Source: Methylococcales bacterium (GTDB lineage: Bacteria > Pseudomonadota > Gammaproteobacteria > Methylococcales > Methylomonadaceae). Taken from it: DNA of 64,000 bases. This document shows, piece after piece, positions 58,992-63,226 of the stretch. The stretch spans positions 1-64,000 of the forward strand of contig JAQTUW010000017.1 of the NCBI GenBank assembly GCA_028707085.1, given 5' to 3'. The notes beneath the pieces are model-generated. The model made no database searches. It was given only the letters and a program-made list of their open reading frames with translations, and had not been told where the DNA came from. A program made the translations under genes and the position numbers. Each line of letters starts with the position of its first letter. Position 1 is the stretch's first letter.

Positions 58992-59921
58992 TCAGGTCAG
59001 CAGCTTGTCCAGCAGCATCATGATGATAAAACCCATCATCAACGAAAAAGTGGCTATTCTGGAACGGCCGTAGGCATGCGTTTCCGGGATGATTTCTTCA
59101 CTGATCACAAACAGCATGGCGCCTGCCGCAAAACCCATGGCGATCGGTAAAATTGATGAAAACATGGTGACCATGGTGATGCCAAGAAAACCGCCTATCG
59201 GCTCCACCAGCCCGGTCAGGGTTGCGATACCGACCGCTTTCCACTTGTTATAGCCCAAGCCGACCAGAGGCAGGGCCACCGCCAGTCCTTCCGGCATATT
59301 TTGCAGGGCTACGGCAAGCGAAAGAACCAGGCCGTTATTGATGTCGCCGGAACCGAAACTGACGCCGACAGCCACGCCCTCCGGAAAGTTGTGGATGGTG
59401 ATGGCGATAATGAACAGGGATATCTTTTGCAGCGAGTCCAGGCTGCTGTCGTTGACGCTATCGAAATGCAGATGCGGTAACCGTCGGTCGGCAAAATGCA
59501 GAAACAGCGCGCCGAGCAGCATGCCTGCCGCGACTACCCAGATGCCTTTGCGGGGCCAGATGAGGTCGCCGAAATCCATGCCCGGCACCAGCAGGGAGAA
59601 AGCGGTAGCGGCCAGCATTACACCAGCCGCTGCGCCCAGCATGCAGTTAAAAACGTTTTGGGAAATATCCTTGAAAAACAAAGCCGGCAGGGCGCCGATG
59701 CCGGTCGCCATGCCTGCCAGAATGCTGGCAAACAGGCCGATGACCACGATGTGGTCAAAAATCAGGTACAGGCTGCCGAAGATGACAAGCTGGCTGAACA
59801 GAAACAGGCCGACGAAAACGCCCCAGCGTTTTAACGGCGGCAGCCCCATGACAACATCGTATTGTGGTAATTCGCGCACACGCAAATAGACTTGTTCTAT
59901 GAAGGACTGGATGTTAAACAT
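58992..59921 (-). CDS. ZIP family metal transporter
   Basis: A membrane importer for Zn2+ and related divalent metals. The 309-aa product has about eight hydrophobic segments. The binuclear metal site is in TIHNFPEGVAVGVSFGSG (about 178-195) and ALQNMPEGLAVALPLVG (about 206-222), with EPIGGFLG and EEIIPETHAYG further on. A His/Asp loop (HFADRRLPHLHFDSVND) separates segments 4 and 5. I see no Zur-like box in its 59-base upstream gap, so coupling to the receptor at 45096 is only thematic. Confidence 0.92.
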   Translation of the reverse strand: MFNIQSFIEQVYLRVRELPQYDVVMGLPPLKRWGVFVGLFLFSQLVIFGSLYLIFDHIVVIGLFASILAGMATGIGALPALFFKDISQNVFNCMLGAAAGVMLAATAFSLLVPGMDFGDLIWPRKGIWVVAAGMLLGALFLHFADRRLPHLHFDSVNDSSLDSLQKISLFIIAITIHNFPEGVAVGVSFGSGDINNGLVLSLAVALQNMPEGLAVALPLVGLGYNKWKAVGIATLTGLVEPIGGFLGITMVTMFSSILPIAMGFAAGAMLFVISEEIIPETHAYGRSRIATFSLMMGFIIMMLLDKLLT

Positions 59922-59980
59922 GTAAGGCTCCGCCGGTTATTATTGGATCAAACGCAGATTATACTGAAGAACAGCCGGAT

Positions 59981-60865
59981 TCAATCAATATAACGCCTCA
60001 GCAAATCCCCGTAACTGTCAATTCGCCGGTCGCGCAGGAATGGCCAGATCTGTCGGGTCTGCTCGCTACGCCTGCCATCCAGGGTGGCGAACAGCAAGGT
60101 GTCCTGCTGATGACCGGCGCTGGTCAATATTTCACCCTGAGAGCCGGCGATAAAGCTGTTGCCCCAGAAATCAATGCCCGGACAGTGATCCGGCGCGGCT
60201 TCGAAGCCGATGCGGTTACAGGCTATGACAGGAATGCCGTTGGCGACGGCATGGCCGCGTTGTATGGTGATCCAGGCATCGAGCTGGCGCTGTTTTTCGG
60301 CCTGATCATCCTCTGGATTCCAGCCGATGGCGGTGGGATAGATCAGCATATCGGCGCCAGCCAGCGACATCAGTCGGGCCGCCTCCGGATACCATTGATC
60401 CCAGCATATCAGCACCCCCAGTTTGCCGATGGAAGTGTTGATAGGCGTAAAACCCAGGTCGCCGGGGGTAAAATAAAACTTTTCGTAAAAGCCCGGATCA
60501 TCAGGGATGTGCATTTTCCGGAAAGTGCCGGCGATGCCGCCATCCTTGTCGAACACCACTGCGGTATTGTGGTATAGGCCCGCCGCTCTTCTTTCAAAAA
60601 TTGTCGAAACGATGACGATCTGGTGGGCTTTGGCGACGGCCGCTAGTGTTTCGCTATCGGGGCCGGGAATGGCTTGGGCCAGATCAAAGCAGGCAGTGTC
60701 TTCGCTCTGGCAGAAATAATGGTCAAGATGCAGTTCCGGCAGAACCACCAGATCGGCATGCTGTTTGGCCGCCTGCTCAATTTGGCGGATCGAATAGGCC
60801 AGGTTTTTCGTCCTGCCGCTGTTGCAGCTTTGTTGTACGGCACAGGCAATGATATTATTTTTCAT
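59981..60865 (-). CDS. aguB: N-carbamoylputrescine amidase
   Basis: A nitrilase-superfamily hydrolase that converts N-carbamoylputrescine to putrescine, CO2 and ammonia. The 294-aa product has the catalytic triad Glu44 (LPELHLDHYF), Lys117 (FRKMHIPDDPGF) and Cys154 (VLICWDQWYPEAARL), all in the expected order. It lies 113 bases downstream of the agmatine deiminase gene on the same strand, which supports the specific substrate call. Confidence 0.94.
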   Translation of the reverse strand: MKNNIIACAVQQSCNSGRTKNLAYSIRQIEQAAKQHADLVVLPELHLDHYFCQSEDTACFDLAQAIPGPDSETLAAVAKAHQIVIVSTIFERRAAGLYHNTAVVFDKDGGIAGTFRKMHIPDDPGFYEKFYFTPGDLGFTPINTSIGKLGVLICWDQWYPEAARLMSLAGADMLIYPTAIGWNPEDDQAEKQRQLDAWITIQRGHAVANGIPVIACNRIGFEAAPDHCPGIDFWGNSFIAGSQGEILTSAGHQQDTLLFATLDGRRSEQTRQIWPFLRDRRIDSYGDLLRRYID

Positions 60866-60978
60866 AAGCTTGAGTTTTTTTGGAAGAGTGTCGGCTTAAA
60901 CAGGCATTTTTAAAGTCGGTGCTGTCGAGGCTATTTCTGGTTCAAAATAAAACCTCGTATCCCCATCCGGGATAAGGA

Positions 60979-62010
60979 TTAAAAATTTAACGCCACGCTG
61001 GCCGGAATCTGCATGCTGGCGCAATGCAGGCTGCCGTACTGATGCACCAGCGGCCGGCAAGGTGTGGCAATAAGCTGGCGATCGGGAAAACACGCCGCCA
61101 GTCGTTCAGTCGCCACGCTGTCATTGGCGTCATCGTAGACCGGAACCATGACCGCGCCGTTAATGAACAGGAAGTTGGCGTAATTGGCGGGTAATTGTTG
61201 GTCGTGTTCGTCAAAAATCGGTTTGGGCAAGGGCAGGGCAACCAGTTTGTAGGGTTCGCCGTTTTCGGTTCTAAACGTCTGCAATTGCGCTTCCATGTTT
61301 TTCAGGCTCGGGTAAACCGGGTCTGCTTCGTCGTCGCAACTGCAATAAGCGATGGTATTGGCGTCCACGAAACGGGCCAGGGTATCGATATGGGCGTCTG
61401 TGTCGTCGCCGGCCAGATTGTCCTGTTCCAGCCATAAAATCCGTTTCACGCCCAGATAATTCCGTAACTGGCTGGCGATGGCCTGTTCGGATAATTGCGG
61501 GTTGCGGTTGGGATTGAACAGACAGTTTTTGGTGGTCAGCAACGTGCCCATTCCGTCGGATTCGATGCTGCCGCCTTCCAGTACCAGATTGACAGTGGCG
61601 TTGGGATGGCCTTTGAATATCGGGTGGGCAAACAGCGCCAGATTCAGGGCGTCGTCGGCCGCATGCGGATATTTGCCGCCCCAGCCGTTGAAACGGAAGT
61701 TCAGCAATTGTACGCTGGCTTTCGGGTGCCGCCATTCCAGGCTGATAAACACCGTGTCGCGCACCCAGATGTCGTTATAGTCGGCCTGTATGAAATGAAG
61801 CTGCGGGTTGTCCGGCAATTGCGACTGAATATGTTGTTGATGTTCGCCGTCCCGGCAGATGATAATCAGGGGTTGAAAGCGGGTGATCGTGGTGGCGATA
61901 AAATGATAGGAGTCCTCCACGGCAGACAGATTGGTAAAGTCGCCGCCATGATGCGGCCAGGCAATTATAACGGCGGATTGCGGTTCCCATTCGGCTGGAA
62001 AGCGGATCAT
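60979..62010 (-). CDS. aguA: Agmatine deiminase
   Basis: It converts agmatine to N-carbamoylputrescine, the step before AguB. The 343-aa pentein-fold enzyme has AEWEPQSAVIIAWPH at the N-terminus, VLEGGSIESDGMGTLL near 143-158, DDTDAHIDTLARFVD near 202-216 and the C-terminal catalytic Cys at about 330 (GSLHCASMQIPA). Together the pair gives an arginine-decarboxylase-linked route to putrescine. Confidence 0.95.
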   Translation of the reverse strand: MIRFPAEWEPQSAVIIAWPHHGGDFTNLSAVEDSYHFIATTITRFQPLIIICRDGEHQQHIQSQLPDNPQLHFIQADYNDIWVRDTVFISLEWRHPKASVQLLNFRFNGWGGKYPHAADDALNLALFAHPIFKGHPNATVNLVLEGGSIESDGMGTLLTTKNCLFNPNRNPQLSEQAIASQLRNYLGVKRILWLEQDNLAGDDTDAHIDTLARFVDANTIAYCSCDDEADPVYPSLKNMEAQLQTFRTENGEPYKLVALPLPKPIFDEHDQQLPANYANFLFINGAVMVPVYDDANDSVATERLAACFPDRQLIATPCRPLVHQYGSLHCASMQIPASVALNF

Positions 62011-62106
62011 GAATGACTCCCTGAGTAAATTGGTTATGAAAGAAATGGCTTATTGTACCAATGCCGGTTATGGAATGTTTTTTTGGACATAAATTTATCT
62101 AAAAAA

Positions 62107-62135
62107 TTGACAAGCCATGGCTGCGGATATATATT
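62107..62135 (+). promoter_or_regulatory. Near-consensus sigma70 promoter
   Basis: TTGACA (62107-62112), 17 bases, TATATT (62130-62135). This is the strongest promoter in the window by eye. The expected start point, 62142-62143, coincides with the ATG of a 25-codon frame. The transcript runs toward the EamA gene but meets a strong terminator at 62170-62218. Confidence 0.85.
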
Positions 62136-62142
62136 CAAATCT

Positions 62143-62218
62143 ATGAATATTTTCACGCCTATTTCCAGAAAACACCTATGGTGGCGGCTACCTGCCGCTG
62201 CGGTGTTTCTGTTTTTTT
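62143..62218 (+). ncRNA. Candidate small RNA or attenuated leader, about 76 nt
   Basis: The interval between the predicted start point and the end of the terminator would give a discrete RNA of about 76 nt. Its 3' half is one long hairpin and its 5' half is A/U-rich and unstructured, a common layout for Hfq-type small RNAs. Read-through would make it the leader of the EamA mRNA instead. Confidence 0.5.
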
Positions 62219-62220
62219 AA
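62143..62220 (+). CDS. 25-aa leaderless ORF (leader peptide or small membrane peptide candidate)
   Basis: A 26-codon frame beginning at the predicted transcription start. It reads MNIFTPISRK, then HLWWRLP, then a hydrophobic end (AAAVFLFF), and stops with TAA at the last base of the terminator T-run. The two adjacent Trp codons (62179-62184) lie in the 5' arm of the terminator hairpin. It could be a leader peptide for attenuation, a small peptide, or chance within a small RNA. There is no ribosome-binding site, so translation would need leaderless initiation. Confidence 0.4.
   Translation: MNIFTPISRKHLWWRLPAAAVFLFF
62170..62218 (+). terminator. Intrinsic terminator upstream of the EamA gene
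   Basis: AAACACC (62170-62176) pairs with GGTGTTT (62202-62208). Above a 4-base bulge, GTGGCGGC (62181-62188) pairs with GCCGCTGC (62194-62201) around loop TACCT. CTG and seven T follow (62212-62218). It lies about 80 bases before the EamA start, so it can act as an attenuator. A second small hairpin CGCGG-GTTTTA-CCGCG follows between 62237 and 62255. Confidence 0.88.
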
Positions 62221-62299
62221 AAAAAATCTGAAGCAACCGCGGGTTTTACCGCGACTGCCCGACGATTCGCCTAAGGCCCGCATCAATAATGGAGGCCTA

Positions 62300-63226
62300 A
62301 TGGCAATAACAATCCTGTCCAATCGCAACACCTTGTTAGGCTTCGCCATGGCGGTGCTGGCGGCTATCGGCTTTTCCGCCAAGGCCATTCTGGTCAAACT
62401 GGCCTATTACGATCAGGTGGACGCCGTCACCCTGCTGGCCTTGCGCATGCTGTTTTCCGCGCCGGTATTTCTGCTGGTCGCCCTGAGCCATGCCCGGCAA
62501 AAACAGCCAAGTCCGATGCTGGGCAAGGACTATCTGGCGGTTTTTATCCTGGGCATCCTGGGGTACTACCTGTCCAGCCTGTTCGATTTTATCGGTCTGC
62601 AATACATATCGGCCGGGCTGGAACGGTTGATACTGTTTCTGTATCCGACCATGGTGGTTCTGCTGTCGGTCTTCCTGCTGGGCAAAGTGTTTGGCCGCAA
62701 GGAAGTGATGGCCCTGCTGCTCAGTTATGGCGGCATCGGTCTGGTGTTTTTTGATGAACTGCACATCCAGTCCGAGAATCTGCTGTATGGCGCGGGTTTT
62801 GTGTTTGCCAGCACCCTGACCTATTCGCTGTACCTGATAGGGGCAGGAGAGACTATTAACCGCATCGGCGCAACGCGGTTCACCGCCTACGCCATGCTGG
62901 TCGCCAGTACCGCCACTGTGCTGCAATTTGTCTGCACCCATCCGCCGCAGGCCTTGCTGGTGACGATGCGGGTCTATCAGCTAAGCGCGCTGATGGCGAT
63001 CTTTTCCACGGTGTTGCCAGTGTTCATGCTGTCCTGGGCCATTCGCCTGATAGGTTCGGCCCATACCTCCATGATAGGTTCAATCGGCCCGGTCGCCACG
63101 CTGTTCATGGCGACAGAAGTGCTGGGCGAGGAATTGAGCCTGATGCAAATTGGTGGCGCGGCGCTGGTGATGAGCGGAGTGTTGAGTCTGACTTTGAAAC
63201 GGCCGAAGGCTAAGTCTGTTGCGTGA
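62300..63226 (+). CDS. DMT superfamily transporter (EamA family)
   Basis: A 308-aa inner membrane transporter with ten hydrophobic segments in two EamA repeats (about 12-145 and 160-298), including GFAMAVLAAIGFSAKAILVK at the start. EamA proteins export metabolites such as amino acids; the substrate cannot be read from sequence. GGAGG (62290-62294) is a strong ribosome-binding site. The upstream promoter-terminator unit suggests controlled expression. Confidence 0.9.
   Translation: MAITILSNRNTLLGFAMAVLAAIGFSAKAILVKLAYYDQVDAVTLLALRMLFSAPVFLLVALSHARQKQPSPMLGKDYLAVFILGILGYYLSSLFDFIGLQYISAGLERLILFLYPTMVVLLSVFLLGKVFGRKEVMALLLSYGGIGLVFFDELHIQSENLLYGAGFVFASTLTYSLYLIGAGETINRIGATRFTAYAMLVASTATVLQFVCTHPPQALLVTMRVYQLSALMAIFSTVLPVFMLSWAIRLIGSAHTSMIGSIGPVATLFMATEVLGEELSLMQIGGAALVMSGVLSLTLKRPKAKSVA

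Follow-up and report, generated by a model that had tools for sequence, protein, structure and literature searches.

The trpL leader of Escherichia coli is leadered and carries a 3:4 terminator. Its control codons lie in segment 1 of a chain of pairings (1:2, 2:3 and 3:4) in which a stalled ribosome favours 2:3 (PMC7298713), and a leaderless leader with Trp codons is already known as trpL of Sinorhizobium meliloti, where the ORF stands at the 5' end of the transcript, comes with mutually exclusive structures and a released small RNA (rnTrpL), and controls the biosynthesis genes trpE(G) via transcription termination (PMC7298713). Short upstream ORFs rich in cysteine codons have been proposed to act by attenuation in mycobacteria, in which leaderless transcripts are common (PMC4633059), and TnaC, a short Trp-containing peptide tied to tryptophan physiology, senses free tryptophan via its nascent chain (PMC8429421). 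The ykkC subtype 2d orphan riboswitch, a ligand-binding RNA whose ligand is described as undetermined, forms a leader before EamA genes (PMC7266159).

The leader described here lies in a 64,000-nucleotide stretch of DNA that was analysed as a whole (hereafter the window) and belongs to a 3.0 Mb genome of the genus Methylomonas. We consider, with a probability of roughly two in three, that it is a ribosome-mediated attenuator of an EamA transporter gene, read by a leaderless Trp-codon frame, such that synthesis of the transporter probably depends on the speed of the ribosome through the Trp codons. The frame, its Trp codons, the leaderless geometry and five competing, co-evolving helices come from sequence comparison, and we infer that the leader is translated, that the ribosome stalls, that stalling means ON and that the transporter has a role related to tryptophan. 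The leader is like the S. meliloti system in its leaderless ORF at the predicted 5' end of the transcript, its Trp codons, its mutually exclusive structures and a possible released small RNA, but it differs in that an EamA transporter gene stands downstream instead of a tryptophan biosynthesis gene, in that a conserved pivot can hide the ribosome-binding site, and in that its terminator-like part is helix 1:2, which is absent in some leaders (PMC7298713). With E. coli trpL it shares the place of the control codons in segment 1, the chain of 1:2, 2:3 and 3:4 and a predicted preference for 2:3 upon stalling, but no consistent U-run was seen by eye after 3:4, and the output would pass through an extra 3:5/5:6 switch. 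The mycobacterial ORFs are similarly short, upstream and furnished with control codons in a leaderless-rich host, but the codons are those of cysteine, the hosts are Actinobacteria and the genes are others (PMC4633059). Likewise, TnaC shares the short Trp-containing peptide, but here the peptide lacks conservation in its C-terminal half (PMC8429421), and unlike ykkC subtype 2d the leader has no Rfam match at threshold (PMC7266159). Overall, the mechanism resembles that of the trp attenuators, and the novelty lies in which gene is concerned, in which lineages, and in a chain of five helices that includes a translational pivot. Leaderless poly-Cys ORFs of mycobacteria have reportedly been studied experimentally since; to our knowledge no six-segment chain has been described for those ORFs, and we know of no leader ORF in ykkC subtype 2d. 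The suggestion made in the initial annotation of the window, that this could be a new attenuation design joining leaderless initiation to stalling within the terminator arm, was overstated, given that the leaderless trpL (PMC7298713) and the mycobacterial Cys-rich ORFs (PMC4633059) came earlier.

Membership of a known RNA family was rejected because there was no Rfam match above the gathering score. Across the whole window only three tRNAs scored above threshold, none of them at the leader, and a search of 62000-62320 with E up to 10 gave seven matches that were all far below the gathering score, the best having an E of 0.0056 and 17.8 bits against a gathering score of 44. The same search of 14 loci, with E up to 1, gave one sub-threshold match, away from the leader. 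The three tRNA genes lie near the window start, at 49-216 and 1478-1550. Among the literature matches listed, none was found that dealt with leader-peptide attenuation of EamA genes or with this leader. Such silence is weak evidence that the leader is undescribed. One of the papers (PMC2965389) mentions neither EamA nor tryptophan in its main text.

In the window, the leader begins on the forward strand with a sigma70-type promoter, TTGACA-17-TATATT (62107-62135; 11 of 12 matches), of which the -35 box lies at 62107-62112 and the -10 box at 62130-62135, with a spacer of 17 nt. It ranked best of six sites in 6 kb, where shuffles averaged 4.4 sites. TATATT is separated by a gap of 7 nt from an ATG at 62143, at or beside which the promoter is predicted to set the transcription start. 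This ATG opens a leader ORF of 25 codons (MNIFTPISRKHLWWRLPAAAVFLFF; 62143-62220, forward strand) that has its control codons, TGG TGG, at 62179-62184 and its stop codon at 62218-62220, 79 nt before the EamA ATG at 62300. The first of the two control codons (W1) is conserved across leaders. Over the Trp codons lies an intrinsic terminator (62166-62218, forward strand) made of helix 1:2, a hairpin at 62166-62211, and seven T at 62212-62218. The near-consensus promoter, the 25-codon frame, the Trp-Trp pair, the hairpin with its T-run and the EamA start had all been proposed in the initial annotation and were each found where it had placed them; its observation that the frame ends in the T-run of the terminator was also correct, the seven T running into the stop codon. 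This unit of promoter, leader frame, Trp-Trp and terminator is the first half of a leader RNA of ~160 nt that ends at the EamA gene, and what had looked like an odd promoter-terminator unit becomes a conserved regulatory RNA.

The earlier claim of leaderless initiation is supported by the geometry of the promoter among relatives. The count covered 51 distinct leaders for which 40 nt or more of upstream sequence was available: 41 had a -10 box ending 5-9 nt 5' of the leader ATG and 39 had both the -10 and -35 boxes placed before it, as opposed to 1/52 and 0/52, respectively, at the EamA start codon, which served as the control; the count leans towards the promoter because the start among several ATGs was picked with the promoter in view. 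Based on this geometry, transcription is predicted to start at the leader ATG.

To assess the frame, starts were chosen by the promoter alone (9 or more of 12 matches, and an ATG located 5-10 nt past the -10 box) and Trp codons were ignored. From 199 loci with an EamA hit, 111 qualified, of which 71 were distinct and 38 remained at <75% identity. Frame 0 was open for at least 18 codons in 37 of these 38 loci and had a Trp codon at codons 9-33 in 36, compared with 12 open and five with Trp for the shifted frame +1, and 28 open and two with Trp for frame +2. The two loci without a frame-0 Trp codon were L031, in which the frame is lost, and L070, a Bacteroidota locus with a chance promoter. A short leader ORF with control codons is, as such, conserved in frame in 36 of 38 loci, which supports the view from comparative sequence that selection acts on the frame and its Trp codons. 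Loss of the Trp codons in relatives that keep the hairpin had been put forward as an outcome that would speak against the initial interpretation, and the outcome was the opposite.

A larger set of 76 leaders, gathered with the aid of the in-frame Trp and, among several ATGs, of the promoter, contained 52 distinct leaders (<80% identity). In order, each has the leaderless ATG, a variable N-terminal stretch, an Arg-Leu-Trp-Leu-Trp-type motif, a G+C-rich segment 2 and the stop codon, past which the alignments place the 3:4 hairpin, the pivot (segment 5) and then the EamA ribosome-binding site (segment 6). W1, whose UGG is also part of helix 1:2, is retained in 48 of the 52; three leaders that have lost it (L168, L174 and L178) were registered by the second Trp codon, and L031 is without any Trp codon. 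A second Trp codon, at +1 or +2, is present in only 25/52. This count, the Trp-less L031 and the part that the UGG of W1 has in helix 1:2 speak against attenuation read by Trp codons. Among the neighbouring codons, Leu stands at -1 in 39 leaders and at +1 in 40, and Arg at -2 in 24, encoded by CGA in 21. It could be that the leader senses slow translation in general rather than tryptophan, through Arg (CGA), Leu and Trp codons or under ribosome-targeting drugs, and a drug transporter of Bacillus subtilis is indeed described as being under ribosome-mediated attenuation (PMC4191407). We consider this explanation improbable, since Trp alone is kept inside the motif in nearly all leaders (51/52, in a collection that favoured Trp), even where the Arg and Leu neighbours have changed. 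Under attenuation by Trp codons, the flanking Arg (often CGA) and Leu codons could still contribute.

Selection on the whole peptide was rejected because its C-terminal half is read in different frames, for example as TAVVFAFF in Methylomonas versus HCRG... in many betaproteobacteria. In two Methylomonas relatives (L117 and L121) the Trp frame is kept, a one-base shift after the Trp moves the end of the peptide to another frame, and the U-run is weakened.

The leader RNA was divided into six segments, all on the forward strand. Segment 1 (62166-62190) is the 5' arm of helix 1:2 and contains the Trp codons, and segment 2 (62194-62211) is the 3' arm of that helix with segment 3 as its alternative partner. 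Segment 3 (GAAGCAACCGCGGGTTTTA; 62230-62248) can pair with segment 2, 4 or 5. Segment 4 (62249-62259) is a partner of segment 3, and segment 5, the pivot (TAAGGCCCGC; 62272-62281), can pair either with 62239-62248 in segment 3 or with segment 6 (62290-62299), in which the EamA ribosome-binding site GGAGG overlaps the pivot-pairing GGCCT. In the window the duplexes of segment 3 have energies of -18.0 kcal/mol with segment 2, -13.5 with segment 4 and -15.2 with segment 5 (ten pairs), and the 5:6 duplex has -11.9 kcal/mol.

To determine which of these pairings co-evolve, duplex energies were computed for every pairing of two segments, once with both taken from the same genome and once with segments swapped between genomes, either freely or within clades, for 47 distinct leaders (15 of the window's order, the Methylococcales, and 32 betaproteobacterial). 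This test and the folding-path test below leave aside five of the 52 leaders, the zetaproteobacterial ones, which diverge. The segment borders were set at constant distances from W1, from the GCGG core and from the EamA start, a choice made after the alignment had been seen. For two leaders a position was assigned manually, namely the anchor in L185 and W1 in L031. Five of the fifteen pairings were stronger at home, with the following z values for free swaps and, in brackets, for swaps within clades: 1:2, -4.4 (-2.5); 2:3, -6.5 (-5.5); 3:4, -7.4 (-7.9); 3:5, -7.1 (-6.8); and 5:6, -8.6 (-7.5). Helix 1:2 had -15.6 kcal/mol in its own genome versus -13.8 when swapped, and within clades 10 of 1000 swaps were as strong; in all other comparisons of the five pairings, whether free or within clades, 0 of 1000 swaps were. 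For the ten remaining pairings no co-evolution was seen in the 47 leaders (z -0.9 to +3.5), and 4:5 was weaker in its own genome than swapped. Mutually exclusive helices are, by this measure, under selection, and the sequence comparison indicates that the five that co-evolve are one chain of competing helices. A pair count over helices 1:2, 3:4 and 5:6 in 28 aligned leaders (alignment A1), set against 500 shuffles, agrees in part with the swap test: 81.1% of cells were paired versus 76.9% in shuffles (0/500) and covariation was 0.214 versus 0.156 (0/500), but two weaker measures are unremarkable and weigh against the reading, with 13 pairs with changes on both sides versus 9.6 (16/500) and 33 further pair types versus 31.4 (144/500).

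We propose that the chain would work as follows. Transcription would begin at the leader ATG, with a 70S ribosome trailing the polymerase. When Trp-tRNA is plentiful, the ribosome would clear the Trp codons and cover segment 2, upon which 3:4 would fold, the pivot would pair with segment 6 and the EamA ribosome-binding site would be hidden (OFF). A stall at the Trp codons would instead cover segment 1 and leave segment 2 free, such that 2:3 would form ahead of the synthesis of segment 4, the unpaired 3' portion of segment 3 would capture the pivot and segment 6 would stay open (ON). The OFF set would then consist of 1:2 (or a ribosome on segment 2), 3:4 and 5:6, and the ON set of 2:3 and 3:5, the two alternating along the chain. 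If the leader is not translated, helix 1:2 would form; in Methylomonas this helix is a putative terminator, at which transcripts of ~76 nt would end.

In a scan of ribosome footprints, 2:3 stayed available as long as the A site lay no further than +3 codons from W1 (2.98-3.36 mean pairs from -1 to +3); it fell from +4 codons past W1 and was gone by +11. The Trp codons are, according to this model, the last stall position that leaves segment 2 free. A stall at the control codons accordingly blocks segment 1 and frees segment 2 in the scan, the blocking of segment 1 by a ribosome at W1 being partly a matter of definition, since segment 1 was defined around W1. Folding paths computed for the 47 leaders (values are medians) had 2:3, with 11 pairs, forming before segment 4 is made when the ribosome is stalled. 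From there the barrier to 2:3 plus 3:5 was 4.6 kcal/mol versus 9.1 to 3:4, and was the lower of the two in 39/47. Leaving 2:3 for 3:4 cost 8.4-9.1 kcal/mol, and a barrier of 8.4 is a modest protection of 2:3. The ON form held both helices in 38/47 leaders, and passing from ON to OFF cost 15.1 kcal/mol. Without a stall, 3:4 formed first and the barrier from 3:4 to 3:5 was 16.7 kcal/mol. Against the proposal, as does the modest barrier of 8.4, speaks the finding that after synthesis of segment 4 the most stable fold is one lacking 2:3, by a median of 3.4 kcal/mol.

Equilibrium folding failed as proof of the switch and counts against this reading. The ribosome-binding site was paired at a near-equal level for every position of the ribosome, with 5:6 present in all states, and a stall at W2 gave no rise of 3:5 (4.15 versus 4.95 pairs; higher in 10/47 leaders and lower in 23/47, p 0.03). 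Because the switch does not appear at equilibrium, the ON direction relies on kinetics and on approximate barriers, and on the folding paths stalling would probably turn the gene ON.

An opposite direction would follow if the ribosome were held at or near the leader stop codon, by an arrest peptide, free tryptophan or another ligand, in the manner of TnaC; the start of segment 3 would be covered, 3:4 would be broken, 3:5 would free the binding site and the gene would be ON when tryptophan is plentiful, which would suit an exporter. In the folding calculations, blocking the first bases of segment 3 did shift 3:4 to 3:5, with 3:5 rising from a mean of 0.76 pairs without a ribosome to 3.97, and the named transporter models that come closest (YddG and TIGR00950, each under its cut-off) stand for an exporter or for general amino-acid and amine transporters. 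We nevertheless regard this explanation as unlikely. An arrest peptide would be expected to be conserved up to the stop codon, but the C-terminal half of this one is not, its frames differing among leaders, and helix 2:3 would be left without a role. Furthermore, the stop codon and the GCGG core in segment 3 are separated by anything from 7 to 52 nt (to 33 nt without the Zetaproteobacteria), and stalling at the stop codon is disfavoured as a general switch because this spacing is too variable for a footprint.

The terminator has support as well. The RNA of 62142-62222 folds at -26.1 kcal/mol versus a shuffle mean of -14.4 (z -4.5), and none of 200 shuffles was as good. Leaders were also scanned for hairpins spanning the Trp codons with a tract of five or more T in eight after them, with any closed hairpin accepted and single-base shuffles as the control. 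A terminator-like hairpin was found in 14/15 leaders of the window's order versus 10/60 shuffled sequences, in 20/32 betaproteobacterial leaders versus 15/128, and in 3/5 zetaproteobacterial leaders versus 2/20. The terminator claim of the initial annotation is supported by the first two of these groups, and the idea that the terminator is a Methylomonas speciality was dropped, given that the shuffle control shows enrichment in the betaproteobacterial leaders as well. Termination at helix 1:2 is probably a common second layer of the regulation. It is probably not the whole switch, because the 80 nt past the terminator hold conserved segments and 12 of the 32 betaproteobacterial leaders are without a terminator. 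The initial interpretation is thus partly supported, in its leaderless initiation, its attenuation logic, its Trp frame and its terminator, but incomplete, as conserved segments lie further 3' and one of them is able to hide the EamA ribosome-binding site. Our results point to an attenuator with hiding of the ribosome-binding site as its conserved output, often with a terminator in addition.

The Methylomonas frame finishes in the U-run itself, and untranslated leaders should therefore end there as an RNA of ~76 nt. One might take this transcript as the product, a small RNA or simply a plain terminator in which the frame is incidental. The hairpins well above shuffles would agree with this, as would the S. 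meliloti rnTrpL, an attenuator RNA that acts in trans (PMC7298713), but the frame, the Trp codons and segments 3-6 past the terminator are all conserved, and every match to the leader model above 25.7 bits (see below) precedes EamA or an apparent truncated EamA gene. We consider it very improbable that a small RNA or terminator is all there is; a released RNA of ~76 nt is possibly a companion of attenuation, with which it is compatible.

The leader is linked to EamA. When 61 genomes were searched at the DNA level, the region turned up in 21, every one of the same genus, and EamA followed in 22/22 fetched loci. A search with the EamA protein in named genomes gave 80 loci, in 21 of which a leader was recognised, and EamA orthologues without a recognisable leader also exist among the 80. 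The leader was seen before orthologues in Thiobacillus, Sulfuricella, Sulfurimicrobium, Sulfuriferula, Gallionellaceae, Methylobacillus, Methylophilaceae and Mariprofundus. Its range includes Methylomonas and further genera of the same order, as well as Betaproteobacteria and some Zetaproteobacteria. In Bacteroidota loci no leader was recognised by the scan for Trp frames or, up to L061, by eye. In five zetaproteobacterial loci (L047, L050, L188, L189 and L193) there are Trp-codon frames with a longer spacer after the stop codon and a different pivot, and on visual inspection these leaders appear to work on the same principle, though with different sequences.

A covariance model of the leader (R1) was searched in 251 genomes of the window's order, 399 of the order of a Thiobacillus genome, which we take to be Betaproteobacteria, and 78 of Zetaproteobacteria. 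The window's order gave 49 matches. EamA follows 40 of them, among which are all 39 that reach 24.9 bits, and the nine without EamA scored no more than 23.7 bits. In the Thiobacillus order, 30 of 37 matches preceded EamA, the remainder being L181 (48.7 bits), one palindromic echo on the opposite strand and five others of no more than 25.7 bits. The Zetaproteobacteria gave six matches, four before EamA and two not (21.9 and 18.6 bits). L181 (reverse strand, ~1400-1750) is a betaproteobacterial leader before an apparent EamA gene that ends after 23 codons, and by eye it has GTG in place of the leader ATG. Among the 32 genomes of the genus that were in both searches, 23 had the leader (R1) together with EamA (E up to 1e-60) and nine had neither. 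It may be that these leaders form a widespread new family of leaderless Trp-codon attenuators, in which the trp chain (1:2, 2:3 and 3:4) is coupled to a pivot (3:5 versus 5:6) before one orthologous EamA gene in three proteobacterial classes, a proposal which in our judgement could hold or fail with about equal ease. Beta-, Gamma- and Zetaproteobacteria would thereby join the groups with leaderless attenuation, and the substrate of the transporter would be predicted to be tryptophan or a compound derived from it.

The presumed target gene (62300-63226, forward strand) encodes an EamA transporter (PF00892) of 308 aa with a Pfam E of 3.5e-30. The protein was not filed as YddG because the NCBIfam model gave 39.8 bits against a cut-off of 300, and no solved structural relative was found by sequence at E 0.01. 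Neither result ties the transporter to tryptophan, which weighs against the main reading. For this uncharacterised transporter the control codons provide a direct prediction, as the conserved Trp codons suggest tryptophan or a derivative as the substrate; if shortage of tryptophan is the ON state, uptake would be more logical than export. Next to the leader on the minus strand, 58992-62010 carries genes that match the models of ZupT, N-carbamoylputrescine amidase and agmatine deiminase, all below cut-offs. A link between the leader and the divergent agmatine deiminase gene was discarded, as the flank was hit in 7/22 locus ids (6/21 genomes) compared with 22/22 for EamA.
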